Made by a program: the position numbers and the translations under genes. A DNA stretch of 64,000 nt from Fructobacillus durionis (GTDB lineage: Bacteria > Bacillota > Bacilli > Lactobacillales > Lactobacillaceae): positions 248,001 through 312,000 of the forward strand of contig NZ_FOLI01000001.1 in NCBI RefSeq assembly GCF_900112405.1, given 5' to 3'. Shown one piece after another: positions 48,501 through 62,344 of this stretch (within the stretch, counting starts at the first letter, position 1; every line of letters begins with the position of its first letter). The notes below the pieces were generated by a model. The model had not been told where the DNA came from. It saw only the letters and a program-made list of their open reading frames with translations, and did no database searches.

Positions 48501-51500
48501 TAACCTCTACCTTTCTCAAGAAGAGAAGGATAAGGCAATGACAGAATTGAAGGATGCGGCTGATGACCGCTTGGCTGAATTTAGGAAGGTTGACTTTGTT
48601 GATCCTGAAAGTTTGGCTGAACAGAGTGCCAAGGTTCATGCTCTCTTGAGTGATTACAGTCATTCAATTGACGAAAGTAAGAGCTATGACCAATTGCTTG
48701 CCGTGAAAGAAGAAGGAATCGCGGCCATTAAGAACGTTGCTTTGCCAGTACGTAATAATGATTACGATGAAGCGACGGCTGCTGATAAGGCTGCTGCAAA
48801 GCAGGCTTTGGCGAACGCTCTGCAATTGAAGAAGGAAAAGTTTGCTGCCATTGAGCATGTTGACAAGGATTCTTTGAACCGGCAAGATGCCCGCCTGGAT
48901 GCGGTTGTTGACGTAGCCAACCAGTCGATTGATTCTTCCAAGACAAAGGGTGAAGTGAAGTCAGCTTTGAGATATGGATTGTCTACTTTAGACACAGTGG
49001 CTGAACCAGAATTAGAGTTAGCTTACCAGCCAGTTTCTGATATTGATCGTCAAAACGCTCGTGATGCCATTGATTCTTCGGCAAAGAACCGTTTGAATGC
49101 CATGAAGAAGATTGAGCACGTTGACGCTAAATCACTTAAGGAACAGGGTAATCTGTTGGAGATGATTGTGAACGATGCGATGGCAGAAATTAATGCTGCA
49201 CAAAATAAGCAAGCACTTCGTGATGCGTTAACTGATGGGCTTTCTAAGATTGAAAGTCTCGCTGACCCTAAGAAGGAAGCTGCCTATCAAAAGCCAACGG
49301 TTGCTGATCGTGAAGAAGCTAAGAATGCCATGAAGCAGGCGGGTGAAGAAAAGAAACGCTTCTTTGAAGATATTGATGGCGTTGATCCTGATAGTCTAAA
49401 GGAAACAGAACAAAGTGTTGACCGGATTGTCAACGAGGCTGATACAGCCATTGACCAAGCCGATACTTTGGCAGATGTTGATAAGGCCTATCGTGACGGA
49501 TTGAAGGCACTGGATAACTTACCAATGCCAAAGGTTATCTTTGAAAATGAAAAGGCAACGGATGAAGACCGTCAGCACGCTGCTGAAAAGCTTCATCAAG
49601 TAGCGACGAATAAACAAGAGAGCTTTAACCAAATTGAACACGTTGACCAGAATTCTTTGAAGCAACAGAGTCAATTGATTGAGAAAAACCTTTCCAGCGG
49701 ATTAGAAAGCTTCAAGTCAGCAGTGACAAAGGGCGACCTCGCCAAGGCTTTGCAAGAGGCGATGGCCGCAATTGAAAACATTGCTGCACCAAGCCTTGAA
49801 GATGATTATCAGCCGGCTACGAGTGATGATAAGTTGTCCGCTCAAAAGCAACTGGAAGAAGCATCAGCTAAGCGTAAGAGGGCGATGGCGGCCATTGAAA
49901 ACGTTGACCCAACTTCATTAGCTAACCAGCAAAAGATTGTCGGTCAAGTTCTCATGGACTATTTAGGGCAGATTACCTCTGCTCAGCTTCGTAAGGATGT
50001 TGCAGCTGTTTTGGATAACGGATTAAAGACAATCCAAGCGGTTGCGGACCCTGTTGTGGGAGAAGATTACCAGCCAGCTAGTGCAGAAAAGAAGGATGCA
50101 GCCAAGCGTCAGCTTGAGCAAGCTAAGCAAGAGAAGGAACGAATCTTCAATTCAATCGAGCATGTTGATCCAACGAGCTTGAAGAACCAAACCCATCAAT
50201 TAGAAGTAATCGCTGAAAGTGGCTACCATGCCATTGATGAAGCGAAGACAAATGGGGATGTGAACCGTGAATTGAACGAGCACCTTCTTTCGATTAGTCA
50301 GGTGCTTGATCCAATGGTTTTGCCAGAGTATCAGCCGGCCAATGAGATGGTTAAGAACCTAGCTAAGCAAACGTTGACGACCGCCAAGGAAGGGCGTGAA
50401 AGCGCCTTTAAGGCAATTGGCCATGTTGACCAATCCGATTTAGGACGCCGTGTTTCAGAACTGGAAGAGACGTTAAAGAATGCTTTGTCTGGCCTTGATC
50501 AAGCTAAAATGAACGGACAAGTAAAGCAAGTGCTGTCTGATGGGTTGCAAGCGATTAGTGCCGTCTTGGAGCCAGGACTTGAAACGGACTATCAACCGGT
50601 AACAGACCAAGACCGTAATGAAGCGGTGGTCCTTGTTGAAAGAGCTTCAGACCATAAGCAGAAGGACTTTGAACAAATTGCCCATGTTGACCAAAAGAGC
50701 TTACAGCAACAAAAAGAAGCCGTTATTAACCAGCTTTCATGGGCTAAGTCAGCCATTCAACAGGCAAGCGTACAAGCCGAATTAAGGAATGCCGTTCAAG
50801 AAGGACTTGCTCGAATCGCAGCGGTTGCTGAACCAGTTTTGGAAAAGGCTTATCAACCTGCTAAGCCAGAGTCGAAGGACCAGGCGAAGAAGCAGTTGGA
50901 TGAAGCGGCCGATAAGAAAAAGAAGGGCTTCTCCGATATTGACGGTGTTAATCCTGACTCTGAAAAGAAACAAGATAAAGCAGTTGATGACGCTGTAAAT
51001 AAGGGGAAGAAGGCGATTAATCAAGCTGAGAAGGAAGGAGAGGTTGATGATGCCTTCCGTAAGGCTCTCAGTGATATTGACCATATTGATAACCCTGAAG
51101 TTCAAGAAGAGCGTAAGACAGCGAATGCTGAAGACCGTCAAAAGGCTAAGAAGACACTGTCAGATCGAGCTGATGAAATTAAGAAGGCCTTTGCGGGTAT
51201 TGAGCACGTTGATCAATTAAGCTTGAATGAACAGCAGAGCCTAGTTGAACGTGAAAGAGCGGTCGGCGAAACAACAATTGATTCTGCTAAGACTAAGGGT
51301 GACGTGCAGTCTGTTTTGCACCAGGCTTTAGATAAGATGAATCAAATTAGTCAACCAAGTTTGGAGGCCGCTTTCCAGCCGGCTAGTTTGGATGACAAGA
51401 AGCGTGCAACTGCTCTTCTTTATCAAGCGGCTGACCAGCGTGTTAAGCGATTTGAAGAAATCGACCATGTTGACCCCGTTAGTTTGAAGAAGCAAAGCGA

Positions 51501-54042
51501 AGAAGTTCGTACGATTGAAAGTAAGGCAGCCGATGATATTCAAGCATCTTCAACCCGTGGAAGTGTTGATCAAACATTATCATTGGCAATTCAGTCAATT
51601 AATTCTGTGAAGGAGCCGGCTTTATTAGCAGGATTTGAACCTATTACCCCTGATGATAAAAGAGCGGCAACTAGTCAAGTTGTTGTTGCCGGTCGAACAA
51701 AGAAGGAGGAGTTTACACTGATTCCTTACGTTGACCAGGGTTCATTAAAGCAACAAATGGACCGCGTCGATGCCATTGTGGATAAGGCCACGGCTGATAT
51801 TAATAACGCAACAACTCGAAATGAGTTGGACGGTCTCATTAGCAAGGCCGTGATGGATATTTCTCAGGTTCCGGCCCCAAAGGCAAAGCCATCTGATCAG
51901 CCACCTAGTCAGGAAATGAAGGACATTTACAAGGAAATGCTTCAACGCTATGCTGATGAAAAGAAGCAGAAGTTTGAGGCGATTGAACACGTTAGCCAAG
52001 TTAGTCTTAAGGAAGAACTTGAAATTATGCAGGACATTTTGACTAAGGGACAGAATGCCATTCAAAATGCCGATACAAATTGGTTTGTTATTTTCCAGTA
52101 CCGTCAATACATCGGTTTGATTGATACGGTGCCAACTCCCGAATTGGAGTATGATTACCAGCCACCAACAAGCTTGGATATTAAGGCGGCTACAAACCGT
52201 TTGACTTGGGATGGGGATAACCGAAAGTATATCTTTAATCATATGGCACGAGTGAACCCTGATAGTTTGGCCCAACGAAAGGCCGAAGTTGACCAACTGG
52301 TTAAGGAACGAATCCCATTGTTTAGTCAAGCAAAGACCCATTTGGAATTAAACGCTATCGTTACGAAGGCCGTTCAAGACCTGTATGACATTCCATTCCC
52401 AGATGTTTTGCCAAAGGACGATCATCCAAGTAAGGAAGAAATCGCAATGGCTATTTCATCTCTAGAAAAGGCAGCAGAAAGTAAGCGTGCTGACTTTGAA
52501 TCGATTGCTCACGTAGATGCTCAGTCATTAGACCGTCAAATTAAGGTTCTGACAGATACGTTGAGAAAGCAGAAGTCGATTATTCAAGATAGTCCAACAC
52601 AGTCTGACCTTCAAAAGAACTTGGTTGATGCTTTGTCTGCTATTCAAGCGGTGGCCCGTCCAGATGTTGAGGATGGTTACCAGCCATTAACGGATGCTGA
52701 AAAGCAACAGGCCGTTTCCGAACTTGAAAAGCTGGTCAATGAACGGACTGATGAATTTGAACATCTACTTGGTGTTGATCCAGATTCACTGGCCAAGCAA
52801 AAGCAACGTTTGCAGGATGTACTTAGCCGTGTGAAATCAACCATTATGGCATTGGCCCAACGACAAGAATTGGACCCTGCAATGAAGGTTGCACGTGCTG
52901 AAATTCAGGCGGTTGAAAAGCCAGAATTAAGTCGCGATTATCAGACTCCAAGTCAGCAGGATCGTGATCAGGCTGTCGAACAGTTGAAGCGTGTGGCTGA
53001 AACAAAGAAGTCCGATTTTGACCAGATTATTGGTACTCAAAGTGATTCATTAACTGCTCAAAAGCTTGAAGTGGACCAGACGGTTCTTCTATACCAAGAC
53101 AAGATTGCTGGGGCACAAACCATTGCTGGTTTGAACCAAGTACTTTTGGCGGGTGAAGAGGCTATCAATCACGTGGAATCACCAAAGTTGGACCGGGATC
53201 ATCGTCCGGTAACAGCAAAGGACCTTGCGGAAGCTAAGGAAGCTGTAAGACAAGCTGGTGATGACAAGAAACAATCATTCGATAAGATTAGTCACGTTGA
53301 CCCAGAGAGTTTGAATCGTCAGAAGCAAAAGGTTGATAAAATCATCAACGATAATCAGTCCGCTTTGGATGGCTCAAAGACGCTGGGTGAGTTAACACGA
53401 GTTAAGAATGTCATTATCTTTGTTATCCAAGCTGTTGACGACCCTGACCGTTTGCCAGTAGTCAATGACGACAAGGAAAAGGCAAAGGCTGAGGTAGAGC
53501 AAGCAGCTAAGGAAAAGAAGGCTGCCATTGATGCGGTTCCAAACGCTAACGCAGGCGAACGAGACGAAATTGAAAAAGATCTCGCAGCCATTGTTGATGA
53601 GGCCGATGCAAAGATCGATGTGGCTGATACACACGACAAGATTGACGCTGCAGTAGCGGAAGCCTTGGATAAGATTGCCCAACTACCATTACCAAAGTCT
53701 GGTGATAATCCATCAGGAGGCGGTGATAACGACAACGGCGGTGGTGATAATCCAGATAACCGTGGAGGTAATGATGACGATAACGGTGGGAACCACTCCG
53801 GTGGTTCAGACGCCGATGCCGACGCTGCAAGAAGAGCAGCCGAGGATGCTGAACGTGCTAAGCGCGAAGCCGAATTGGCCGCTCTTGAAGCAATGAAGAA
53901 GCGCGGTGGCGCTGATTCATCTGCTGCTTCACCTGCAACTGCTAAGCAGGATAAGGTGAGTGGTAACCGTGTCATCGTTGCACTTTCAGCTATGGCAGCA
54001 GCGACAATCGGATTTATCACAACAGGTCGTAAGCATAAATAG
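45592..54042 (+). CDS. Giant surface adhesin, 2816 residues, with 19 tandem 87-residue helical repeats
   Basis: A basic head and hydrophobic segment (about 15-33) form an atypical signal sequence, followed by an Asn/Gln/Asp-rich linker (to about 170). A non-repetitive globular region of about 800 residues follows (starting near DKAHLADVARQILDTVKNDL), possibly the binding head. From residue 1001 to about 2653 come 19 units of exactly 87 residues. Their consensus is (E/D)HVD-SL-Q, then (A/T)-I-A-(T)-V, AL-GL-I-VA-P-LE-YQPA, and a helix ending K-FE-I. This resembles the DUF1542/Ebh-type helical bundles of staphylococcal giant adhesins. A Gly/Asp/Asn spacer (about 2704-2745), a charged helix, SPATA (2780), a hydrophobic helix and GRKHK end the protein. 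The ribosome binding site is AAAGGATG. Ligand unknown. Confidence 0.85.
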   Translation: MIKKNNLLTIAQSKRTWLIASTVFVSTGIAEIDARHRATATADDLNISQPVKSQNEQFSPTTAADEKNQIDDNASSVVSEPKNQKPSDERASTAAKGTDSSAVRADEHSNQDDQVVPLKGDEQNNQKPAKVLPLDGEANQQSNDDVAKALTDAHQAEQTPLPQSDIPLTDEDKAHLADVARQILDTVKNDLAKKPYSTNPNNDPLKPLYEMTKTSSYEELVNVLGGFLPNLAYPGEGQLDYNQEYVKKPGEMKFDVPSYSFFGYGGKENDYSNVSYMRLITDETLVREVADRILSIMGTPYKGTKINYTPENNSLNFSGGFPFYAVIQSTNGSLLNPTYYLGQLSRTLEAITNLLTFGAIDTSVNQNYDSGQYGIYLRLEVPEGADPNTVIQAMNLEKSKFGAQMDFNVNLSVDEILNRIPGIRDIISSSAGIPISGYAGSVIDLLMGSVLDKINEEYGTNLKAKGVDSPFYPITLYPKDIKTNLKEDPRGMYLLVRGDNLDKFDSLFLQAKIMLTKFFMNALSWGGNIVGGAYGYLNFDLNRYQGNMSSEEMATAYGKDSANSKAMAGYADDSPNKVLTRGQLPPDPNGRLSLSMNALDANSMLSEKKEKYTNGNLGKDIVIDRNKIHDNPQLTGGIDTWRAYISLFDNQGEYNTKDVDSSKAEWMEIDGVKQVLPGSDIDHRTVDLKPGEDFYSERDRFDRVIDYFTGDVLLDDKGFHPTDAVKSLKLVKSVDPEGKKTSADDFAIYDRPFTVYYNGEMTLADGRRIALRPTKMTVIQHAVVTRSAEDGVDLNRKRTIAYNHIKEQSDFIKLTVQDLTPKVADEKLVDFIHRMDDVLVSANQALEKAASEEDVFVAQDAAVKNMQEIQKSVITRQDLDTAMRRAARQQGDQQINETAYSYRLMITDAKDLTDKQKEEYIKSIQEIQDDTLKNLAGIYLHAEEESAKQSLQDYLNQIGQETNQGLNKIRNLYLSQEEKDKAMTELKDAADDRLAEFRKVDFVDPESLAEQSAKVHALLSDYSHSIDESKSYDQLLAVKEEGIAAIKNVALPVRNNDYDEATAADKAAAKQALANALQLKKEKFAAIEHVDKDSLNRQDARLDAVVDVANQSIDSSKTKGEVKSALRYGLSTLDTVAEPELELAYQPVSDIDRQNARDAIDSSAKNRLNAMKKIEHVDAKSLKEQGNLLEMIVNDAMAEINAAQNKQALRDALTDGLSKIESLADPKKEAAYQKPTVADREEAKNAMKQAGEEKKRFFEDIDGVDPDSLKETEQSVDRIVNEADTAIDQADTLADVDKAYRDGLKALDNLPMPKVIFENEKATDEDRQHAAEKLHQVATNKQESFNQIEHVDQNSLKQQSQLIEKNLSSGLESFKSAVTKGDLAKALQEAMAAIENIAAPSLEDDYQPATSDDKLSAQKQLEEASAKRKRAMAAIENVDPTSLANQQKIVGQVLMDYLGQITSAQLRKDVAAVLDNGLKTIQAVADPVVGEDYQPASAEKKDAAKRQLEQAKQEKERIFNSIEHVDPTSLKNQTHQLEVIAESGYHAIDEAKTNGDVNRELNEHLLSISQVLDPMVLPEYQPANEMVKNLAKQTLTTAKEGRESAFKAIGHVDQSDLGRRVSELEETLKNALSGLDQAKMNGQVKQVLSDGLQAISAVLEPGLETDYQPVTDQDRNEAVVLVERASDHKQKDFEQIAHVDQKSLQQQKEAVINQLSWAKSAIQQASVQAELRNAVQEGLARIAAVAEPVLEKAYQPAKPESKDQAKKQLDEAADKKKKGFSDIDGVNPDSEKKQDKAVDDAVNKGKKAINQAEKEGEVDDAFRKALSDIDHIDNPEVQEERKTANAEDRQKAKKTLSDRADEIKKAFAGIEHVDQLSLNEQQSLVERERAVGETTIDSAKTKGDVQSVLHQALDKMNQISQPSLEAAFQPASLDDKKRATALLYQAADQRVKRFEEIDHVDPVSLKKQSEEVRTIESKAADDIQASSTRGSVDQTLSLAIQSINSVKEPALLAGFEPITPDDKRAATSQVVVAGRTKKEEFTLIPYVDQGSLKQQMDRVDAIVDKATADINNATTRNELDGLISKAVMDISQVPAPKAKPSDQPPSQEMKDIYKEMLQRYADEKKQKFEAIEHVSQVSLKEELEIMQDILTKGQNAIQNADTNWFVIFQYRQYIGLIDTVPTPELEYDYQPPTSLDIKAATNRLTWDGDNRKYIFNHMARVNPDSLAQRKAEVDQLVKERIPLFSQAKTHLELNAIVTKAVQDLYDIPFPDVLPKDDHPSKEEIAMAISSLEKAAESKRADFESIAHVDAQSLDRQIKVLTDTLRKQKSIIQDSPTQSDLQKNLVDALSAIQAVARPDVEDGYQPLTDAEKQQAVSELEKLVNERTDEFEHLLGVDPDSLAKQKQRLQDVLSRVKSTIMALAQRQELDPAMKVARAEIQAVEKPELSRDYQTPSQQDRDQAVEQLKRVAETKKSDFDQIIGTQSDSLTAQKLEVDQTVLLYQDKIAGAQTIAGLNQVLLAGEEAINHVESPKLDRDHRPVTAKDLAEAKEAVRQAGDDKKQSFDKISHVDPESLNRQKQKVDKIINDNQSALDGSKTLGELTRVKNVIIFVIQAVDDPDRLPVVNDDKEKAKAEVEQAAKEKKAAIDAVPNANAGERDEIEKDLAAIVDEADAKIDVADTHDKIDAAVAEALDKIAQLPLPKSGDNPSGGGDNDNGGGDNPDNRGGNDDDNGGNHSGGSDADADAARRAAEDAERAKREAELAALEAMKKRGGADSSAASPATAKQDKVSGNRVIVALSAMAAATIGFITTGRKHK
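48592..53551 (+). repeat. 19 coding tandem repeats with exact 261-bp period
   Basis: The conserved (E/D)HVD-SL codons begin at 48592, 48853, 49114, 49375, 49636, 49897, 50158, 50419, 50680, 50941, 51202, 51463, 51724, 51985, 52246, 52507, 52768, 53029 and 53290. Every step is 261 bp. The unit sequences differ widely at DNA level. A shorter, degenerate 20th unit follows after 53500. Confidence 0.9.
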
Positions 54043-54068
54043 TTGAAAATAGTTAAATAATGCCAGGA

Positions 54069-54097
54069 AGTCTAGTTCAATTTGAACTAGGCTTTTT
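54069..54097 (+). terminator. Intrinsic terminator after the giant adhesin gene
   Basis: AGTCTAGTTCA-att-TGAACTAGGCT followed by TTTT. Confidence 0.82.
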
Positions 54098-54122
54098 GTC
54101 ATTGAAATCTTTGTGCTATAAT
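54096..54122 (+). promoter_or_regulatory. Promoter of the GNAT gene
   Basis: TATAAT at 54117-54122 with upstream TGC (extended -10) and a TTGTCA at 54096-54101 (15-bp spacing). Confidence 0.6.
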
Positions 54123-54151
54123 ATTCTTCTGATGATTGAGAGAAAGGAGCC

Positions 54152-54176
54152 GCACGTTTGATTCATTGAACGTGCA
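54152..54176 (+). promoter_or_regulatory. Hairpin between ribosome binding site and start of the GNAT gene
   Basis: GCACGTT and AACGTGC form a 7-bp stem around TGATTCATTG. AAAGGAG lies immediately before it and ATG 54187 11 nt after it. Confidence 0.5.
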
Positions 54177-54186
54177 AACAAAGAAT

Positions 54187-54732
54187 ATGCCAGCAGTATA
54201 CATGCGGCGGGCCAAGGCTCGCGACATTGACGCCATTGTCGAGATTTTACAAACGGCCAAAGCTTATTTGAAGGAACAAGGATTGGATCAGTGGCAGGGA
54301 GAATACCCTAACGCTGATACCATTCAGACCGATATGGATAAGCACCAAGCCTTTGTGTTGATGGTTGATAACCAAGTTGCAGGATATGCAGCTGCCTTCG
54401 AAGGTGAAGACCCACTTTACACTGCCTTGGAAGACGGTTCATGGTTGAAGGAGGGACATGACTATGCCTCACTTCACCGTGTTGCCATGTCAGATAAGTT
54501 CCGTGGACAACGTTTAACACCACGTTTCATCACTGCCTTGATTTCATACTTCTATGCACAAGGTGCACGTGATTTCCGAATCGATACGCACCCTGGCAAC
54601 TTGCCAATGCAAAAGGTTATTAAGAACAATGGCTTTGAGCAACGTGGAACGGTTCACATGCAAGAAGCACCTCACGTTTCAACAGCACGTTGGGCTTACC
54701 AATTGTTGATTGAAGACGAAACTGAAGCTTAA
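54187..54732 (+). CDS. GNAT N-acetyltransferase
   Basis: This 181-residue acetyltransferase starts MPAVYMRRAKARDIDAIVEI. The GNAT strands include VLMVDNQVAGYAAAFEG, and the acetyl-CoA region contains LHRVAMSDKFRGQRLTPRF (about 98-116). The C-terminal FRIDTHPGNLPMQKVIKNNG (about 135-154) is characteristic of the superfamily. An open frame extends 17 codons upstream, but ATG 54187 is the best start. The ribosome binding site AAAGGAG is separated from it by a hairpin, which would shorten the effective distance. Monocistronic; substrate unknown. Confidence 0.82.
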   Translation: MPAVYMRRAKARDIDAIVEILQTAKAYLKEQGLDQWQGEYPNADTIQTDMDKHQAFVLMVDNQVAGYAAAFEGEDPLYTALEDGSWLKEGHDYASLHRVAMSDKFRGQRLTPRFITALISYFYAQGARDFRIDTHPGNLPMQKVIKNNGFEQRGTVHMQEAPHVSTARWAYQLLIEDETEA

Positions 54733-54740
54733 GTTTAATC

Positions 54741-54777
54741 AAAAAGTCCTTTAGGAAGATTCCTAAAGGACTTTTTT
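54741..54777 (+). terminator. Intrinsic terminator after the GNAT gene
   Basis: AAAAAGTCCTTTAGGAA and TTCCTAAAGGACTTTTTT, near-perfect 15-bp stem. Confidence 0.9.
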
Positions 54778-54824
54778 GTGCTTACTTTATTAGTCTAAAG
54801 ATGAGTTATTGAGAATATTAGATT

Positions 54825-55214
54825 TTAGTCTTGATTTAACACCTGCCAGGCAAGCTGGTGGGGGCCCTTGTTCTTGTTATCTGGAATCCAGATAAAGAAA
54901 ACCATGTCAAGGTTGGGGAGCAGTCCAAGAATTTCATCGACCTCTTTTTGGTAGTGTTTGGCGTACTGCTTTTGAAGGGAAGTGACTAGAATTTCGGAAT
55001 CAGACTGAATTTGGATGATTTCATTGTCATTTAATTCCGCTTGCACCTGTTTGAGTCCCCAAATGAGGGCCTGAAACTCAGCCTCGTGGTTACTTTCGCA
55101 GTGTTTTAATGAACTTTTGAGTGGAATTTGCTCTTTATTTTTAACAAAAACAATGCCGGCAGCGCTTTCTTTTGTTGATTGTCGAAAAGCAGCGTCTGTT
55201 TGGATTTGAATCAT
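54825..55214 (-). CDS. RNase HI-like protein with altered fourth catalytic position
   Basis: The 129 residues fit the short RNase H/RVT_3 family related to Bacillus YpdQ/YpeP. The first carboxylate is in QTDAA (Asp7), the second in NHEAEFQAL (Glu46), the third in QSDSEILV (Asp72). The usual C-terminal NKxADxLA motif reads NKGPHQLA, so the fourth Asp is His119. RNase HI cleaves RNA in RNA-DNA hybrids; whether this variant does is unclear. GAGGAGG precedes the start. It is divergent from the ebsA-like gene. Confidence 0.8.
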   Translation of the reverse strand: MIQIQTDAAFRQSTKESAAGIVFVKNKEQIPLKSSLKHCESNHEAEFQALIWGLKQVQAELNDNEIIQIQSDSEILVTSLQKQYAKHYQKEVDEILGLLPNLDMVFFIWIPDNKNKGPHQLAWQVLNQD

Positions 55215-55308
55215 GCGATTTCCTCCTCATATTTACCAGTCTTACAATAACAGAAGCGGTTATAAAATGGTAAAATAGATACAGTATCTTTCACTTTAAG
55301 GAGTTATC

Positions 55309-55701
55309 ATGACGAAAATTAAAGCATATTATCAGCCGGCCTCTGATTGGGCCGCAATTTGCTGGTTAATTTGGGGCTGCTTTCTTGCTGTTAGTCCTAT
55401 TTGGGCGTCAGAACTCTTTTATAAAGTCAATGGTCTATGGCTGGCTTATACCGTTTTCATTGTTTTGGTTGGGATTTACCGCTTTGGAATGCGCCGGCTT
55501 GTTTTTGATAAGAAATACATACAGATTCTACAGTTGCGTTTCTGGAAAATGAAGATTATCGAACTTGGTGAAGAAGGTCAATCAGTAAAGGTTGATGGCC
55601 GAACATTAACGATTCAAGACGAAGACGGCAAAGAAAAACGTTACCGTTTGACACGACGGGCATGCCGGAAAATAAAGGATGAACTGAATGAGCAACAGTA
55701 A
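55309..55701 (+). CDS. EbsA-like two-helix membrane protein
   Basis: This 130-residue protein begins KAYYQPASDWA. Two membrane helices follow (about 15-33 and 40-58), then a basic cytoplasmic domain of about 65 residues (RRLVFDKKYIQILQLRFWKM). The layout and the YYQP start resemble the EbsA family of enterococci and lactobacilli, often found next to a short RNase H gene as here; the biochemical role is not known. AAGGAG precedes ATG 55309. Its last 14 bases overlap the start of rluD, implying coupled translation. Confidence 0.6.
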   Translation: MTKIKAYYQPASDWAAICWLIWGCFLAVSPIWASELFYKVNGLWLAYTVFIVLVGIYRFGMRRLVFDKKYIQILQLRFWKMKIIELGEEGQSVKVDGRTLTIQDEDGKEKRYRLTRRACRKIKDELNEQQ

Positions 55702-56599
55702 GCAAATCACAATTAAAGAGGGTGGCAAGCGTTTGGATGCCGCTTTAGTCAACGCTGGCCTCGAACATTCGCGCTCGACTTTGGCAGCTTGGATTAAAGA
55801 AGGGGCTATCCTAGTTAACGGAAAGCAAGTGAAGTCCTCTTACAAAGCAAAGGCTGGCGACGAAGTCTTCATTACGGTTCCCGAAACAAAGGAAACGGCT
55901 ATCGAAGCAGAGAACATTCCGCTTGATATTGTCTATGAAGACGATGATTTAATTGTCGTTAATAAGCCACAGGGAATGGTTGTTCACCCAGCTGCAGGAC
56001 ACGCTACTGGAACCTTGGTGAATGCCTTGCTTTACCATGCACCACTCTCAACGATTAACGGGGAGTTCCGGCCAGGAATTGTCCACCGTATTGACCGAGA
56101 TACGTCGGGCTTGCTAATGGTGGCCAAGAATGACAAGGCCCACCAAGCATTGGCAGCAGAATTGAAGGCCCACAAGACCGAGCGTTATTACTATGCTTTG
56201 GTTCGTGGCGAATTCAAGGAAGACAAGGGAACGGTGGATGCACCAATTGGTCGCCATCCAAAGGACCGTAAGAAGCAAGCGGTCATCCCTGGCGGACGCG
56301 ATGCCGTGACTCACTTTGAAGTCTTGGAACGCTTCAACGGTTATACGCTTTTGAAGCTAGCCCTGGAAACTGGACGGACACATCAAATCCGTGTGCACAT
56401 GCAATACATTGGACACCCGGTTGTTGGCGATCCAACCTATGGCCACCAGCAGGTGATGGCGGATATAAAGCTAAAAGGTCAGTTATTGCACGCCAAAACC
56501 TTGGTCTTAACACAGCCAAACACGGGCGAAAAGATGACTTTTGACTCAGAGTTACCTGAGTCTTTCAAACGAGTATTAAAAGCTTTAAAAGAAGAATGA
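55688..56599 (+). CDS. rluD: RluD-type 23S rRNA pseudouridine synthase
   Basis: RluA/RluD enzymes isomerise uridines in 23S rRNA. The 303 residues have an N-terminal S4 RNA-binding domain (about 10-70; STLAAWIKEGAILVNGKQVK). The catalytic domain carries HRIDRDTSGLLMVAK (about 136-150), with the essential Asp in RD. The ETGRTHQIRVHMQYIGHPV block (about 230-248) is typical. In many Firmicutes this gene precedes pyrR, as here. Which uridines are modified cannot be deduced. Confidence 0.94.
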   Translation: MSNSKQITIKEGGKRLDAALVNAGLEHSRSTLAAWIKEGAILVNGKQVKSSYKAKAGDEVFITVPETKETAIEAENIPLDIVYEDDDLIVVNKPQGMVVHPAAGHATGTLVNALLYHAPLSTINGEFRPGIVHRIDRDTSGLLMVAKNDKAHQALAAELKAHKTERYYYALVRGEFKEDKGTVDAPIGRHPKDRKKQAVIPGGRDAVTHFEVLERFNGYTLLKLALETGRTHQIRVHMQYIGHPVVGDPTYGHQQVMADIKLKGQLLHAKTLVLTQPNTGEKMTFDSELPESFKRVLKALKEE

Positions 56600-56633
56600 T
56601 TAAGTAAGTATACATATAAAAAAGGAGTGAAAG

Positions 56634-57161
56634 ATGGTTAACAAAATTGTTTTAGACCAAGCTTCCATGCAACGAGCACTAACGCGAATTACCTATGAAA
56701 TTTTGGAGCACAACAAGGGTGGCCAAAACTTGATTTTGGTTGGTGTGAAAACCCGTGGTGAGTATTTGGCACACCGCATTGCTGACCGTTTGGAACAACT
56801 GGAAGGCGTTCAGATTCCGGTGATGGCCATTGATATTTCAGACTACCGTGATGATCGGTTGAGCAACCACACGAAGTTAGGTTTGGATGAAGATGACCGC
56901 GTCAACATTATCGATAAGAACATTGTTCTTGTCGACGACGTACTCTTTACCGGTCGTACAACACGTGCGGCCTTGGACGCTTTGATTCAAATTGGTCGTC
57001 CAAAGACGATTTCATTGGCAGTTCTGATTGACCGTGGTCACCGCGAATTGCCAATTCGTGCGGACTTTGTTGGAAAGAACATTCCAACTGCTCAAAACGA
57101 AAAGATTCAAGTGCGAGTGAAGGAAATTGATGACGTGGACGAGGTTGAAATCGTTCACTAA
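56634..57161 (+). CDS. pyrR: PyrR: pyrimidine regulator/uracil phosphoribosyltransferase
   Basis: PyrR senses UMP, binds pyr mRNA leaders and has uracil phosphoribosyltransferase activity. The 175-residue protein has the PRPP-binding motif [15 protein letters not shown] (about 101-115), the N-terminal [16 protein letters not shown] helix and a C-terminal [20 protein letters not shown] block. AAAGGAG precedes ATG 56634. No PyrR-binding leader with terminator is seen before it or before the carA-like gene 35 nt downstream. It is the only clearly functional pyrimidine gene here. Confidence 0.96.
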
Positions 57162-57196
57162 TTCACCGAACTTGCTGTGATAAAACAGGGGACACA

Positions 57197-58276
57197 ATGG
57201 AACGACATCTCATTCTAGAAGACGGGACAGTTTTTTCAGGCCAGGGATTCGGTGCGCCAGCAACGACCTTTGGTGAAATTATTTTTGATACGGCAACCTC
57301 TGGTTACCAGGAAACAATCACCAACCCAATTTACGATGGGCAGATGATTGTTTTTGCCATGCCCGTTGTTGGTGCCGATGGAATTCACGCGGAAGCCTAT
57401 GAATCCATTAACCCTAAGATTCGCGGGATGATTGTCCACGACTTGGCTGAGGTTTCCACTAACCGTCAGCGTCGAATGAATTTGGACCGTTTCTTGAAAC
57501 AGCATAATATTCCTGGTCTTTACCAGGTGGACACCCGTAAATTGATTCGTCATTTACGAGAGACTGGTTCACAAAAGGCAACCATCGTGGATGTTGTCGA
57601 TGACCACGCTCGTGATCAGCTACAGGCGACGGTTTTGACGAACAAGCAGGTGCAGAATACGGCGACAACGAAGGCCTATTCCAATCCAGGCCGCGGCTTT
57701 CACATTGTTGTGATTGATTTTGGTTTGAAAAACGGGATTCTACGAGTTCTTGGCGACTACGATGCCAACGTAACGGTGCTGCCTTATACGACTTCGGTTG
57801 ACGAGGTGTTGACTCTGGATCCAGACGGTATCATCTTGTCGACGGGACCAGGAAACCCCGAGGACCTACCGGAGTCAGTTTTGACTTTGATTCGCGTTTT
57901 GCAGTCGAAGGTGCCAATGCTTGGTATCGGTTTGGGGCACGAGCTCTTTGCACTGGCAAACAACTCGGAGTTGACGACTTTGCCAGCTGAATACCACGGG
58001 ATGAACCATCCTATTCAGGAAATTATTTCGCAAGAAATGATTTATGCCCGACAGGGACGTGGATACGTGGTCGACCCTGACGCCTTGGACACAAAGAAGC
58101 TTTTCGTAACCCACCGGGATATGGTGGATAACTCGATTCAAGGTTTGCGCCACCGTGACTTTCCGGCCTTTTCGGTACAGTTTTTCCCCGACGGGGCACC
58201 TGGACCACTGGAAGCAAAGCGTGTTTTTGCGGACTTCTTCGAAACGGTAGTAGATTATGTACAAAAGAACAACTGA
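57197..58276 (+). CDS. CarA-like carbamoyl-phosphate synthase small subunit without glutaminase triad
   Basis: The 359-residue length and domain order match CarA, which strips ammonia from glutamine for carbamoyl phosphate. The N-terminal domain is well kept (EDGTVFSGQGFGAP, TATSGYQETITNP, VDTRKLIRHLRETG). The glutaminase domain keeps the fold (VIDFGLKNGIL, STGPGNPEDL). But the nucleophile elbow GICLGHQ reads GIGLGHE (Gly245 for Cys), and the His-x-Glu dyad in SVQYHPE reads SVQFFPD (Phe330, Asp332). It should be unable to hydrolyse glutamine. It follows pyrR by 35 nt and overlaps the carB-like gene by 20 bp. Confidence 0.9.
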   Translation: MERHLILEDGTVFSGQGFGAPATTFGEIIFDTATSGYQETITNPIYDGQMIVFAMPVVGADGIHAEAYESINPKIRGMIVHDLAEVSTNRQRRMNLDRFLKQHNIPGLYQVDTRKLIRHLRETGSQKATIVDVVDDHARDQLQATVLTNKQVQNTATTKAYSNPGRGFHIVVIDFGLKNGILRVLGDYDANVTVLPYTTSVDEVLTLDPDGIILSTGPGNPEDLPESVLTLIRVLQSKVPMLGIGLGHELFALANNSELTTLPAEYHGMNHPIQEIISQEMIYARQGRGYVVDPDALDTKKLFVTHRDMVDNSIQGLRHRDFPAFSVQFFPDGAPGPLEAKRVFADFFETVVDYVQKNN

Positions 58277-60773
58277 TGAAAATTTAAAGCGCATCCTGTT
58301 CTTGGGTGCTGGTGAAACTGACTTTGGTATGCAGGGTGAGAACGATGCGGCCATTTACCAGGTTTTGCCCATTTTAAAGTCGCAGGGATACCGTCTCTTT
58401 TTGGTGGATGATAATCCTTATTCGATGGCTTTGGAATCCTCTGAGGCGGAGACCATTGTTTCGACGCTGACGGTTCAAAACATTAAGTCCATTATTAAGG
58501 AAAAGCAGATTGATGCGGTCTTTCCTGGATTTGCTGGAATTCGTGGTATACGTCTTTGGCAGCAAATTATCTCGGAATGGCGTGAAACGGATGGCGCCCG
58601 GCCAGTTGGTTTGGGAATGCCCGATTCAACCGTTGAATTGTTAAACGATTCAGCGGCGCTTTTTGAGCGTTTGGAGTCTGCTGGGCTGTCCATGCCACGG
58701 GCAACGATTGTCCGCAACCAGACGGAAGCTAATGAATTATTGCGTGATTTGGAGTTGCCATTGTTGGTGCGTGCACACAACCCAGCAGCCGGGACGACAC
58801 GTAAAATCGTACGGCGTTTGGATGACTTTGAAGATACCATTGACCAGGTGATGAGCCAGTCTTTGACTGGGGAAGTGGTGATTTCCAAGGCCATTAACGG
58901 GTTGAAGGAAATTTCCATTCTCGTTCTTCGTGATACTAATGGAAACTGTATGCAGGTGGGAGCGACCGAGGATATGGATCCGGTCGGAATTCACACGGCG
59001 GATTCACTTTCCGTGGCACCGGTACTAACCATTTCGGATCAGGTCCTTCAAGAAATGCGCTCACAGGCCTTCTTAGTGGCTAACATTTTGAATATTCAAG
59101 GACCGGTTCATGTTCAATTGGCTTTGAACGAAAAAACCAACCAGCTTTATATTATTAAAGTCTCACCATACTTGGATAATTTGACTAATCGCATGGCTCT
59201 GATGACTGGTTATCCGGTTATGCTTGTGGCTGCTCAATTAGCGGCTGGCCGTGCTATTCAAGACGTTGAATTACCTGATTCTTACCATGCCAAAACGGCC
59301 ATGATGGAACCCGTAATGGACCACATTGTCGTTAAGCTGCCCGTTTTCTCCTTTGGCGATTTGAAGGCTGCTGGGGTCGAAGTGAACAGGCAGCTGAATT
59401 CAATTCAAAAGTCGGTTGGGTCAGCCCTTGGTTTTGGCCGAACCTTTACCGAGGCCATGGAAAAGGCGATTCGTGCGGCCCACTTTAACAACCGCTCCTT
59501 CTCACCAAAGTATATGAAGAACGTATCGGATGATGAGTTGATTCAGCAGTTGATTCACCCCCACGATAACCGTGTACTTCTACTTGTCGAAGCGCTTCGA
59601 CGGGGCTATGAAGTGGATGAATTAGCCGAATTGACTAAGATCGATGAATTCTACTTCTATCAATTGAAGCAGTTGTTGAAGATTGAGAGTCAAATCGTTG
59701 ATGGCGAAGCCAGCCAGGAAATGCTTTCCGTTGCCAAGCAGTCTGGCCTTTCAGATGGTTTGTTAGCACGATTTTGGCAGACGGACTTCCAGTCTATCCG
59801 TGCCTTGGCGAAGCAGTCCGGTGTCGTGCCAACCTATAAGGCTCTGGAACCATCAGCCGGTGAGTTCCCAGAAAACGCCCACCAGTTCTTTGCGACTTTT
59901 GAAGAGGAAAATGAGTCCGAGCCTGTTTCAGATAAGTCGATTTTGCTTGTTGGAGCAGGGGCCTTTCGAATGGGGGATGGCGCTGCCGCTGGTTATGTGA
60001 CTTCGGTTGTTTTGTCCGAGTTGCGGAAGTTAGGCTATAAGACAGTCATCATGAACAACAATGCGGCCGACGCTTCTTTGTTGCCACACTTGTCTGATAA
60101 GCAGTATTTGGAACCCTTGGAAGTTTCTGATGTGATGGCCGTTGTTGACCAGGAGCATCCGGAAGCTATCGTGGTAACTGGTAACCGACGGAAGTTGATT
60201 GAGGCCTTGGTAGCCCTAGGGCAAAAAGTCATTGTGCTACCAAAGGAAAAGCATCAGCCAGCTGGTCCTGAAAAGGACGAATCCGAGTTTGCCTTGAACA
60301 TTTTCTATGATGGCGAACAGGCCTATCCGCTAGTGCTGACTCAGCACCAGGAAGGTGAAGTTCGTTTGATTGATCAGGACGTTTTCGATGCTGATTTATC
60401 CGGTATCAAATTGCCTTACTCTGGTGTTTATCAATTAATTTGGCGGGAGAAACGTACTGATTGGCCTGCGGAAGTATCATTACCTAATTTTGCTGTGGAC
60501 ACTTGGCTACGGCCAATGCCATTTGGTGAAATTGCCTTTCTTTCGAAGATTCTGCAATTGTCTTTGATTCGTTTGGTTGTCCGTTCTTGGAAGGGCGGCT
60601 TGGACGGGAGCGATTTGGAAGCTCTGGTTGCTCACATGCCAGCTTTGCGTGGATCGGACTTTGCCATGGTATCTGACCGAACGGACTTTGACCTGCACTT
60701 GAAGCCGGATTCGCCAATCGATTCGACCCGTTTTGAAATGGGTGCAAAGATGATTCGCTTACAGGAGAATTAA
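58257..60773 (+). CDS. Truncated, degenerate CarB-like protein (pseudo-carbamoyl-phosphate synthase large subunit)
   Basis: Normal CarB has about 1060 residues in two ATP-grasp halves; this has 838. Residues 1-400 follow the first half (DMDPVGIHTADSLSVAPVLTISD, then VQLALNE). The ATP-grasp glycine loop (TLGGTGGG) reads NPAAGTTR, and the metal-ligand motif IEVNPR reads IKVSPY (Lys301, Ser303). The oligomerisation domain (about 405-545) is recognisable (LVEALRRGYEVDELAELTKI). The second half keeps its pre-ATP-grasp part (ILLVGAGAFRMGDG, IMNNNAAD); its ATP-grasp is shortened and unrecognisable. The frame is fully open. It is coupled to the carA-like gene and 1 nt from the next gene. Catalysis seems impossible by the known mechanism. 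Confidence 0.85.
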   Translation: MYKRTTDENLKRILFLGAGETDFGMQGENDAAIYQVLPILKSQGYRLFLVDDNPYSMALESSEAETIVSTLTVQNIKSIIKEKQIDAVFPGFAGIRGIRLWQQIISEWRETDGARPVGLGMPDSTVELLNDSAALFERLESAGLSMPRATIVRNQTEANELLRDLELPLLVRAHNPAAGTTRKIVRRLDDFEDTIDQVMSQSLTGEVVISKAINGLKEISILVLRDTNGNCMQVGATEDMDPVGIHTADSLSVAPVLTISDQVLQEMRSQAFLVANILNIQGPVHVQLALNEKTNQLYIIKVSPYLDNLTNRMALMTGYPVMLVAAQLAAGRAIQDVELPDSYHAKTAMMEPVMDHIVVKLPVFSFGDLKAAGVEVNRQLNSIQKSVGSALGFGRTFTEAMEKAIRAAHFNNRSFSPKYMKNVSDDELIQQLIHPHDNRVLLLVEALRRGYEVDELAELTKIDEFYFYQLKQLLKIESQIVDGEASQEMLSVAKQSGLSDGLLARFWQTDFQSIRALAKQSGVVPTYKALEPSAGEFPENAHQFFATFEEENESEPVSDKSILLVGAGAFRMGDGAAAGYVTSVVLSELRKLGYKTVIMNNNAADASLLPHLSDKQYLEPLEVSDVMAVVDQEHPEAIVVTGNRRKLIEALVALGQKVIVLPKEKHQPAGPEKDESEFALNIFYDGEQAYPLVLTQHQEGEVRLIDQDVFDADLSGIKLPYSGVYQLIWREKRTDWPAEVSLPNFAVDTWLRPMPFGEIAFLSKILQLSLIRLVVRSWKGGLDGSDLEALVAHMPALRGSDFAMVSDRTDFDLHLKPDSPIDSTRFEMGAKMIRLQEN

Positions 60774-60774
60774 G

Positions 60775-61041
60775 ATGGCAAAGGGAAAGTACGACACGGT
60801 GATTTTATACGGCCAGCCATTAACGGAAGATGCCTCTGGTAAGCTTTACGTTGCTGAGGGGGAGAAAGAACACCCTTGGCGGATTGGAAAGCATACCAAG
60901 GGGAAGTTAATTGGGCCTGGTCAGGTTTTCTTGACCGAGCAGAATCAAAAGGTTCGTTTGGCTAAAACAGCACCACTATCCTTCAAGGACCGCCATGACT
61001 ATCAGCCAATGGGCCGTTTCACCAAGGATGTTTTAGACTAA
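60775..61041 (+). CDS. Small basic protein at the end of the pyrR-carA-carB-like operon
   Basis: The 88-residue soluble protein (starts MAKGKYDTVILYGQPLTEDA) contains an SGKLYVAEGEKEHPWRIGKH segment and a K/H-rich middle. It has no signal peptide, membrane helix or recognised motif. Its ATG begins 1 nt after the carB-like stop, so it is surely co-transcribed and probably translationally coupled; a terminator follows. The close coupling to two pseudoenzymes suggests a shared function, but that is inference. Confidence 0.65.
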   Translation: MAKGKYDTVILYGQPLTEDASGKLYVAEGEKEHPWRIGKHTKGKLIGPGQVFLTEQNQKVRLAKTAPLSFKDRHDYQPMGRFTKDVLD

Positions 61042-61069
61042 GGTCTAGAAAAAAAGATAATATTCATTC

Positions 61070-61101
61070 AAAAGTCCTAGAAATCTTCTAGGACTTTTTT
61101 A
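61070..61101 (+). terminator. Intrinsic terminator ending the pyrR operon
   Basis: AAAGTCCTAGAA and TTCTAGGACTTTTTT, 12-bp stem. Confidence 0.88.
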
Positions 61102-61111
61102 GTACAGTCTT

Positions 61112-61139
61112 TTGAAAAGTGCTCGGGCTCTTGTATAAT
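61112..61139 (+). promoter_or_regulatory. yhaO-yhaN promoter
   Basis: TTGAAA at 61112-61117 and TATAAT at 61134-61139, spacing 16 bp. Confidence 0.75.
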
Positions 61140-61174
61140 AATGATACGAACACCTGTTTGGAAGGAGCGGAGCT

Positions 61175-62344
61175 ATGCTGTCATTTATTCACGCGGGGGA
61201 TGTCCACTTGGGCAATCCTTTTACTGGTTTATCAAAGAATTTACCTAAAGCTTTTCAAGATGCAGTGGCAGATGCTGGCTACGTGGCCTTTGACCGTTTG
61301 ATTCAAGAAGCGATTCAGCAGCAAGTGGACTTCGTGCTCTTTCCGGGGGACCTCATGCATGGTGCTGGCCAGACGGCCCGTCTACAGGCCACACTGGTGA
61401 AGGGCTTTCTAGCGCTGAAAGAGGCGGGAATCCAGGTCGTACTTTCCTTTGGGAACCATGATTATCAGGCCTATGAAGGGGTTAAGAACGCTTGGCCTGA
61501 TAATGTATACGTTTTTGGCCAGGAAGTTCAAGAAAAGATTTTGATGACTCGCACAGGTGAGCGGGTGGCCTTTGTTGGCTTTTCCTATCGTGACCGTTCA
61601 GAGCGACGGGACCGCCTAGTGGACTTTCCAGTTCGAAACGAATCGATTGATTATGAAGTGGGCCTATACCATGGGGCCGTTGGCCAGGTTGGGGATGATT
61701 ACGCCGCCTTTTCAATTGAGGAAATGTTGCAGAAGAATTATGACTACTGGGCTCTCGGACACATCCATATTCGAGAAGTGCTGCATGAACACCCAGTCAT
61801 TGCTTATTCAGGTAATTTACAGGGACTGAATCGCAAGGAAACAGGGCCAAAGGGGGCACTCTTAGTGCGGGATAGTGGACAAGGTTTGGAGCCCACTTTC
61901 CTAAGCTTAGCACCGGTTCGCTTTGAAACCCTTGAAATGACGGATTGCCGGTCTTTTCTTGATTTCATTGGGCAGTTAAAGCAAGTGGAGTTTGATTCTA
62001 CGACGTTGCTATCTATCGAATTAAATGGTGATATTCCAGCCGAAATGCAAGCTGATCAAGCGGACGGCCGCTTACTCGATAAGGTGCAGTTAGCACTACC
62101 AGAGAGCGGAAAAGTTTGGCCAATTCATATTGCTTTGTCCCATAAACAGAAGTTAGTGAAACCAGCCTTTGCACAAATGGATTTTGATCAGGCTATTCGA
62201 CAAACCATCGAGGGGCAACCTTTGACGGCCAATTTGTCCGATGAAGTGCCTCTTCCAATTCGTGATTATTTTACTAGTAAAGAAGGGCAGCAGGCCGTTC
62301 AGGAAGCGTTGGAAGAACTATTTTCTGAAGGAGGGGAATCATGA
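61175..62344 (+). CDS. yhaO: YhaO-family metallophosphoesterase (SbcD/Mre11-like DNA repair nuclease)
   Basis: The 389 residues carry Mre11-type phosphodiesterase motifs in order: HAGDVHLGNPF (residues 6-16), FPGDLMHGA (about 58-66), FGNHDYQ (about 91-97), LYHGAVG and ALGHIHIRE. A C-terminal capping domain follows. YhaO pairs with the SMC-like ATPase YhaN, as SbcD pairs with SbcC, in double-strand break processing; that role is inferred from the family. GGAAGGAG precedes ATG 61175. Its stop overlaps the yhaN start (ATGA). Confidence 0.9.
   Translation: MLSFIHAGDVHLGNPFTGLSKNLPKAFQDAVADAGYVAFDRLIQEAIQQQVDFVLFPGDLMHGAGQTARLQATLVKGFLALKEAGIQVVLSFGNHDYQAYEGVKNAWPDNVYVFGQEVQEKILMTRTGERVAFVGFSYRDRSERRDRLVDFPVRNESIDYEVGLYHGAVGQVGDDYAAFSIEEMLQKNYDYWALGHIHIREVLHEHPVIAYSGNLQGLNRKETGPKGALLVRDSGQGLEPTFLSLAPVRFETLEMTDCRSFLDFIGQLKQVEFDSTTLLSIELNGDIPAEMQADQADGRLLDKVQLALPESGKVWPIHIALSHKQKLVKPAFAQMDFDQAIRQTIEGQPLTANLSDEVPLPIRDYFTSKEGQQAVQEALEELFSEGGES

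Follow-up and report, generated by a model that had tools for sequence, protein, structure and literature searches.

A CarA-CarB pair with degenerate catalytic sites, probably non-enzymatic in role, at the pyrR locus of Fructobacillus durionis and its relatives

The stretch of Fructobacillus durionis DNA considered here (the ‘window’: 64,000 nucleotides, positions 248,001 to 312,000 of contig NZ_FOLI01000001.1, assembly GCF_900112405.1) carries a tight run of genes in the order ebsA, rluD, pyrR, carA', carB' and a gene of the DUF7671 family, in which carA' and carB' encode relatives of the two subunits of carbamoyl-phosphate synthetase (CPSase). Gaps of 34 and 35 nucleotides separate rluD from pyrR and pyrR from carA', respectively; carA' and carB' overlap by 20 nucleotides, and a single base lies between carB' and the DUF7671 gene. 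A second, ‘genuine’ carAB lies elsewhere on the same contig (locus L004) in a normal pyr operon, pyrB-pyrC-carA-carB-pyrD-pyrF-pyrE, its genes being named from sequence and pyrB confirmed by its model. In the codes used below, f, g, G and L stand for family, genus, genome and locus, with G000 being the window's own genome. The original prediction, made from the letters alone, was of a shortened CarB-like pseudoenzyme coupled to a CarA-like protein.

Aligned to genuine CarA, the window's CarA' has lost both catalytic residues of the glutaminase site, Cys being replaced by Gly (C248 to G245) and His by Phe, within stretches that read GIGLGHE and FSVQFFPDGAPGP. The nucleophile of CarA sits in a strained turn, given which Gly may be favoured at this position. 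Despite these losses the protein passes the cut-offs of both NCBIfam small-subunit models (402 bits against 221, and 345 against 307), and its predicted structure (predicted local distance difference test score, pLDDT, of 79; predicted template modelling score, pTM, of 0.61) gives a TM-score to E. coli CarA of 0.79 by query length.

CarB' has an intact frame that opens with ATG and encodes 838 residues, as first described; at 222 residues fewer than the genuine CarB of the same genome (1060 residues, 31% identity), it also matches the shortfall of about 220 that had been estimated. It scores 420 of 1027 and 419 of 599 bits against two large-subunit CPSase models, and thus falls below both cut-offs. 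The predicted loss of the glycine loop and of the Glu and Asn metal ligands from the first ATP-grasp domain is borne out by the alignment: the loop GGSGGG has become AGTTRK, and the metal site IEVNPRVSRSS has become IKVSPYLDNLT, with Glu changed to Lys, Asn to Ser and the following Arg to Tyr. Family models continue to detect the first ATP-grasp domain as a whole, as well as the oligomerisation domain (PF02787, residues 431-507) and a second pre-ATP-grasp domain (559-641). As predicted, then, the oligomerisation domain is kept, and the CarA-like partner is present in the overlapping gene. The second ATP-grasp domain, in contrast, had been described as reduced beyond recognition, which goes too far; its N-terminal half, including the ATP loop, is absent and its EVNPRASRT motif altered, but residues from about 678 align with the C-terminal half, and the predicted model (mean pLDDT 86, pTM 0.88) superposes on E. 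coli CarB (1c30_A) with a TM-score of 0.85 by query length. Also absent is the C-terminal allosteric (MGS) domain, which binds uridine monophosphate (UMP) in E. coli CarB; sensing of UMP by this route was considered and set aside as unlikely because the domain is missing. Judged from these residues and domains, the glutaminase and synthetase sites of the window pair are both broken, and CarA' and CarB' are almost certainly pseudoenzymes.

Table 1. Features of the gene run, in window coordinates
Feature	Position	Strand	Basis
rluD (pseudouridine synthase), constant upstream neighbour	55688..56599	+	Open reading frame; named by sequence and gene order
pyrR	56634..57161	+	NCBIfam NF003548, 247 bits against a cut-off of 218
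carA', CarA paralogue without the glutaminase-site Cys and His	57197..58276	+	NCBIfam small-subunit models
Gly245 codon of CarA'	57929..57931	+	Position of the catalytic Cys (C248) in genuine CarA
carB', truncated CarB paralogue, 838 residues	58257..60773	+	Open reading frame, models, alignment
Arg182 codon of CarB'	58800..58802	+	ATP-loop Gly in genuine CarB
Lys301 codon of CarB'	59157..59159	+	Metal-ligand Glu in genuine CarB
DUF7671 gene (PF24710), possible fifth gene of the run	60775..61041	+	Pfam, 91.5 bits

The pair is under strong purifying selection. Ratios of non-synonymous to synonymous substitution (dN/dS), calculated by the Nei-Gojobori method for 14 congeneric pairs, ranged from 0.002 to 0.035 for CarA' (13 pairs) and from 0.012 to 0.055 for CarB' (11 pairs), against 0.032-0.062 for genuine CarA (five of six pairs) and 0.026-0.078 for genuine CarB (six pairs), saturated dS having left one of 14 CarA', three of 14 CarB' and one of six genuine CarA pairs with no ratio. 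The range for CarB' overlaps that of genuine CarB, and CarA' lies mostly below genuine CarA; between G000 and G010, for example, the values are 0.002 for CarA' and 0.048 for genuine CarA, with 0.016 and 0.026 for the respective large subunits. When eight genes of the region were compared with those at L134, the lowest four values belonged to carA' (0.0015), pyrR (0.005), the DUF7671 gene (0.007) and carB' (0.016), with rluD, ebsA, rnhA and yhaO at 0.028-0.089; beyond L134, dS in this comparison of neighbouring genes was saturated in many pairs. Lost catalytic residues and purifying selection are therefore found together, as in a pseudoenzyme.

Within the genus, carB' is present with an open frame in all 13 genomes (the window's own included), and the window's CarA' matches its counterpart in Fructobacillus sp. 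CRL 2054 at 100% identity. Genuine carAB accompanies the pair in 11 of these genomes, and the other two, G006 and G008, have no other CarB when all candidates are scored. Carbamate kinase was considered as another source of carbamoyl phosphate; its gene arcC was found over cut-off in 21 of 23 genomes searched, but in neither G006 nor G008. In the family sample described below, some 35 genomes that have the truncated form gave no further CarB-like match when up to three candidates were scored in each (all five in G187).

The family sample comprised 301 genomes from 40 genera of Lactobacillaceae, in which residues were read for between one and a few genomes of each genus. A pair whose CarA has exchanged Cys for Gly occurs in 33 of the 40 genera, mostly in the order rluD-pyrR-carA'-carB'. 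Its CarB' measures 818-859 residues in 21 genera, 791-800 in three (g3, g8, g35), 659-660 in g9, 643 in g22 and 1054-1067 in seven (g10, g14, g17, g21, g27, g37, g40), and wear is uneven: ATP-grasp 1 is apparently intact in L195 (g21), where only the second is lost, and L095 (g22) keeps both the metal-ligand Glu and Asn. At L200 (G044, g33), a possible intermediate, CarA keeps its Cys and lacks the His and other residues, alongside a full-length CarB without the metal-ligand Glu. Seven partial or duplicate genuine CarB loci, and L220, which holds a CarA fragment only, were left out of one residue count.

The loci assigned to named organisms are the best 80 of 242 relatives, drawn from Leuconostoc and Weissella (14 each), Lactiplantibacillus (12), Fructobacillus and Secundilactobacillus (10 each), Furfurilactobacillus (5), Periweissella (4), Convivina, Lactobacillus (as labelled) and Paucilactobacillus (2 each) and Pediococcus (1), with four unassigned; the CarA Cys position is Gly in all 80, the His position is Phe in 79 and a gap in one, and rluD lies on the same strand in 79.

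In the genomes read of six further genera (g11, g12, g25, g29, g30, g31) only genuine carAB was found, and in all of these except g29 it sits behind rluD-pyrR together with pyrB and pyrC; the pseudo pairs therefore look like positional descendants of a native pyr-operon carAB. On gene order, the pair occupies the ancestral place of the pyr operon, directly after rluD and pyrR. G048 (g37) has two pyrR genes, one at each end of a pyr operon with genuine carAB (L202), and its pseudo pair (L096) stands alone behind rluD.

The truncated form makes up one clade (Shimodaira-Hasegawa-like approximate likelihood ratio test, SH-aLRT, 100 in a short tree search; 100/100 in the CarA tree), which answers the question, posed with the original prediction, of whether a clade of such pairs exists, and the two genes have, by their sequences, been inherited as a pair. 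Across 154 aligned truncated CarB' sequences (some genomes being counted twice), the metal-ligand Glu at position 301 is replaced by Lys in 133 and by Arg in the remaining 21, the ATP-loop Gly at 182 is Arg in 151, Arg302 is mostly Tyr (141) and Asn300 is kept in just 16. Other positions have been held: E215 in 151, H243 in 149 and a basic residue at 169 in all 154. Comparison of 40 truncated with 25 genuine sequences gave ten switches from one fixed residue to another in CarB and six in CarA, which suggests remodelling rather than mere loss. The CarA' of this clade has Glu in place of Gln252 and has lost Asn290, positions which bind glutamine in E. coli CarA; a role for CarA' in sensing glutamine was considered, and is unsupported given these two changes.

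Pseudo pairs with Gly for Cys are also found in three other families of the order (f2, f3 and f4). Those of f2 g49 (G309, G343, G371, G425) and f3 g83 (G450, G468, G474, G534, G554) have a CarB' of 995-1060 residues and a CarA with Asn or Gln at the His position. In all five surroundings read the pair stands among pyr genes; pyrR is visible in four of them, the L245 contig stopping short of it, and that of G371 shows no pyrB. Both CarBs aligned from these families (L239 and L245) have lost or changed ATP-grasp residues, and that of L239, full-length but degenerate, passes both large-subunit cut-offs. Pseudo pairs in Lactobacillales thus occur also as full-length degenerate copies inside pyr operons.

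Ten genomes of f4 g43 (L257-L269), a genus that resembles Streptococcus in gene order and size, carry a CarB-like frame of only 583-591 codons (proteins of 577-579 residues), with Gly for the CarA Cys in all ten and no other CarB match in any; in four of four surroundings read the pair follows pyrR, and in three of these pyrB intervenes. The ATP-grasp-1 Glu and Asn are retained at L257 and L263, as is the CarA His at L257, so that in these two, although the nucleophile and the second half are gone, inactivity of the first site is less clear. Other g43 genomes carry genuine carAB, which is likewise present in each of the three families (L244 in f2; L237 and L238 in f3; L241 and L273 in f4). In a further family, G502 and G533 (f5 g67; L255, L256) each have two copies of a CarB-like frame of 483-507 codons that is 66% identical to genuine CarB over its N-terminal half, and G533 additionally has distinct frames of 326-332 codons; CarB may here be divided between two genes.

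Pseudo CarAs of f2 group with genuine CarAs of f2 and f7 (98/96), those of f3 with genuine f3 CarAs (100/99) and those of f4, not strongly, with genuine f4 CarAs (93/79). A single origin of all pseudo CarAs is rejected by the approximately unbiased test (p=0.0066), for a group that was set by residue state after the first tree had been viewed, and with long branches present; from this we conclude that the Cys-to-Gly change arose more than once.

Linkage to pyrR is conserved, the gene lying at most 150 nucleotides upstream of the pair in 78 of the 80 named loci. The window's PyrR retains its phosphoribosyl pyrophosphate (PRPP) loop and the RGHRELPIR stretch, and was the only PyrR match in a search of G000; a plasmid copy of pyrR was sought by megablast, with no match. 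At L190 and L195 a gene for a uracil/xanthine-family permease stands between pyrR and carA'. Aspartate carbamoyltransferase (ATCase) over cut-off is lacking in 18 of 50 genomes searched, 12 of which were read at residue level, and the pair is present in all 12. The gene after one PyrR element was examined in seven ATCase-less genomes (the elements of G061, G095 and G205 falling below the Rfam gathering score): it encodes a xanthine/uracil-family permease in G061, G220, G038 and G118, a cytosine/uracil-type permease in G095, a nucleoside deoxyribosyltransferase in G205 and, in G045, a transporter of the major facilitator superfamily whose substrate is not clear.

Synthesising these findings, we propose that the pair probably does a non-enzymatic job, and we tentatively favour a model in which CarA'-CarB', a catalytically dead descendant of CarA-CarB, would take part in pyrimidine homeostasis as a regulatory partner that binds a ligand and acts on or through PyrR. 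The complex would be made together with PyrR; its ATP-grasp-1 site, with Lys or Arg for the metal ligand and Arg for the ATP-loop Gly, would bind an anionic ligand, either a nucleotide or a phosphorylated metabolite, with neither Mg2+ nor turnover involved, and the state of the ligand would be passed to PyrR, or to genes under PyrR control such as the pyr operon in trans or a uracil permease. We infer both the binding of a ligand and the contact with PyrR. The model is preferred because both subunits have broken catalytic sites, low dN/dS and a pyrR close by; because pseudo pairs of other families also stand behind pyrR; because the pair is kept in the absence of ATCase, in genomes where PyrR elements precede pyrimidine-type permeases; and because the first site appears to have been remodelled in a non-random fashion, as the near-invariant basic residues at 301 and 182 indicate.

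Several observations weigh against such a role. At the loci of g2, g5, g17 and g37 pyrR is absent and the pair directly follows rluD (searched genomes of g2, g5 and g37 have a PyrR elsewhere), and the adjacency of pyrR is itself partly inherited from the old pyr operon. An Rfam search of window positions 54000-62000 for a PyrR RNA site gave no match at E-values up to 1, and the match in the pyr-operon leader of G000 is weak (32 bits, E 0.029, gathering score 54) and was not listed by the search of the whole genome; G001, of the same genus, has a similarly weak one (31.8 bits, E 0.009) immediately 5' of pyrB. Moreover, the switch to Lys or Arg is confined to the truncated clade, other pseudo pairs differing there, and L195, L095, L257 and L263 retain the Glu and Asn ligands of ATP-grasp 1.

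We also speculate, while holding it to be unlikely, that CarA'B' is the missing sensor of inorganic carbon (or of carbamoyl phosphate or a nucleotide) in control of the PyrR2 type, reporting CO2 status to the adjoining PyrR, and that lactic acid bacteria have arrived at such sensors more than once through inactivation of a CPSase beside pyrR, the Cys giving way to Gly on every occasion. The ancestral CPSase would have bound bicarbonate and ATP. In passages of the literature on Lactiplantibacillus plantarum, PyrR2 is given as lp_1782 and PyrR1 as lp_2704 (PMC7911632), and PyrR2 is cited as a regulator responding to inorganic carbon (PMC3582564). The two genomes searched of g38, which was placed in Lactiplantibacillus by CarA' identity, have two PyrRs each, of which one belongs to the pyr operon and the other adjoins the pair; we infer that PyrR2 is the latter. 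A search of the literature by locus numbers around lp_1782 returned nothing on its neighbours.

Other roles have to be weighed against that of a regulatory partner for PyrR. The dead pair might act as a structural scaffold, one that holds together, or channels between, ATCase, dihydroorotase and genuine CPSase; the oligomerisation domain and CarA-type fold are retained, the f2 and f3 pairs lie inside pyr operons, and the same pathway offers a precedent in the inactive dihydroorotase that plays such a part for some ATCases (PMC6022934). This is improbable in view of the 12 genomes that have the pair without ATCase over cut-off, and of G006 and G008, which also lack genuine CarB. Improbable too, to a like or slightly greater degree, is a new enzymatic activity, in which the sites would have been rebuilt for some other reaction, for example on a nucleotide or carboxylate: the retention of E215, H243 and the basic residue at 169 in nearly all truncated CarB', together with the fixing of new residues, would suit it, but with the metal-ligand Glu, the ATP loop, half of ATP-grasp 2 and the CarA nucleophile gone, no nameable chemistry of ATP-grasp or amidotransferase enzymes is left.

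The pseudo subunits could instead join genuine CarA or CarB and tune the genuine CPSase, for which the window's genome and most others of the genus do supply a partner. A regulator acting only through genuine CarAB is very unlikely because G006 and G008 have CarB' alone, and the genomes with the truncated form and no other CarB-like match count against it as well. There is scarcely any likelihood that the pair is what remains of a redundant second CPSase in decay, its survival owed to chance: missing catalytic residues and domains are what such a relic would have, but the open frames in every genome of the genus, the low dN/dS, the single old clade of truncated forms and the fixing of new residues all tell against it. 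For Lactobacillaceae the selection results refute a relic, and the 13 genomes and many genera that hold the pair exclude the single decaying strain which had been named as the outcome fatal to the original prediction; recent loss is possible in single members of other families.

Compared with CarA-CarB of E. coli (1a9x, 1c30), the window pair has the same homologous subunits, the same gene order with overlap and like predicted folds, and differs in lacking the Cys and His, the ATP loop, the ligands, half of ATP-grasp 2 and the MGS domain. Vertebrate CPS1 also has a CarA-like domain without the catalytic Cys, yet its two synthetase sites are intact and it forms carbamoyl phosphate from ammonia, a reaction that the window CarB', as its residues indicate, could not perform. 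Pseudokinases such as STRAD-alpha bind nucleotide independently of metal, a basic residue having replaced a metal-binding one, and act as regulatory partners; the basic-for-metal exchange and the regulatory role are both features of the CarB' proposed here, in a different fold, and the binding of a ligand by CarB' would be by analogy. In Pseudomonas putida, an inactive dihydroorotase (PyrC') in the ATCase complex is likewise a dead enzyme of the pyrimidine pathway with a non-catalytic role (PMC6022934); it is a different enzyme with a role in ATCase assembly, whereas many genomes with CarA'B' have no ATCase over cut-off. Control by PyrR1 and PyrR2 in L. plantarum resembles our model in that a PyrR adjoins the pair in g38, and differs in that the passages on PyrR2 mention no CarAB-like part.

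Residues, domain losses, conservation across the clade and purifying selection together uphold the original description of a paired pseudo-CPSase. It had further been held to be, as far as known, undescribed, and no description of such a pair was found in the literature searched (most subscription journals lying outside it). The pairs recur across Lactobacillales and are not one narrow system. Pseudoenzymes as such are familiar; the novelty would lie in a CPSase-derived form with two subunits, found repeatedly beside pyrR.

Two further features of the window may be recorded. The DUF7671 gene is also found by tblastn 3' of carB' in five genera (g1, g6, g7, g16, g39), and upstream of the run, at 45592-54042, lies an open frame of 2816 residues with a signal-like start and many repeats of about 70-80 residues, which from its sequence resembles a large surface protein.

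Since CarA' and the CarB' of L239 pass NCBIfam cut-offs, public annotation is likely to misname such proteins; automatic annotation then credits organisms with a CPSase, and metabolic models may hold a reaction that does not exist. The CO2-dependent growth of lactic acid bacteria has long posed the question of how inorganic carbon might act on a PyrR paralogue, and the pair supplies one explanation that can be tested. Finally, that a two-subunit dead CPSase occurs in 33 of the 40 genera sampled from the family, and arose repeatedly within the order, suggests that CarAB has a job beyond catalysis in these organisms.

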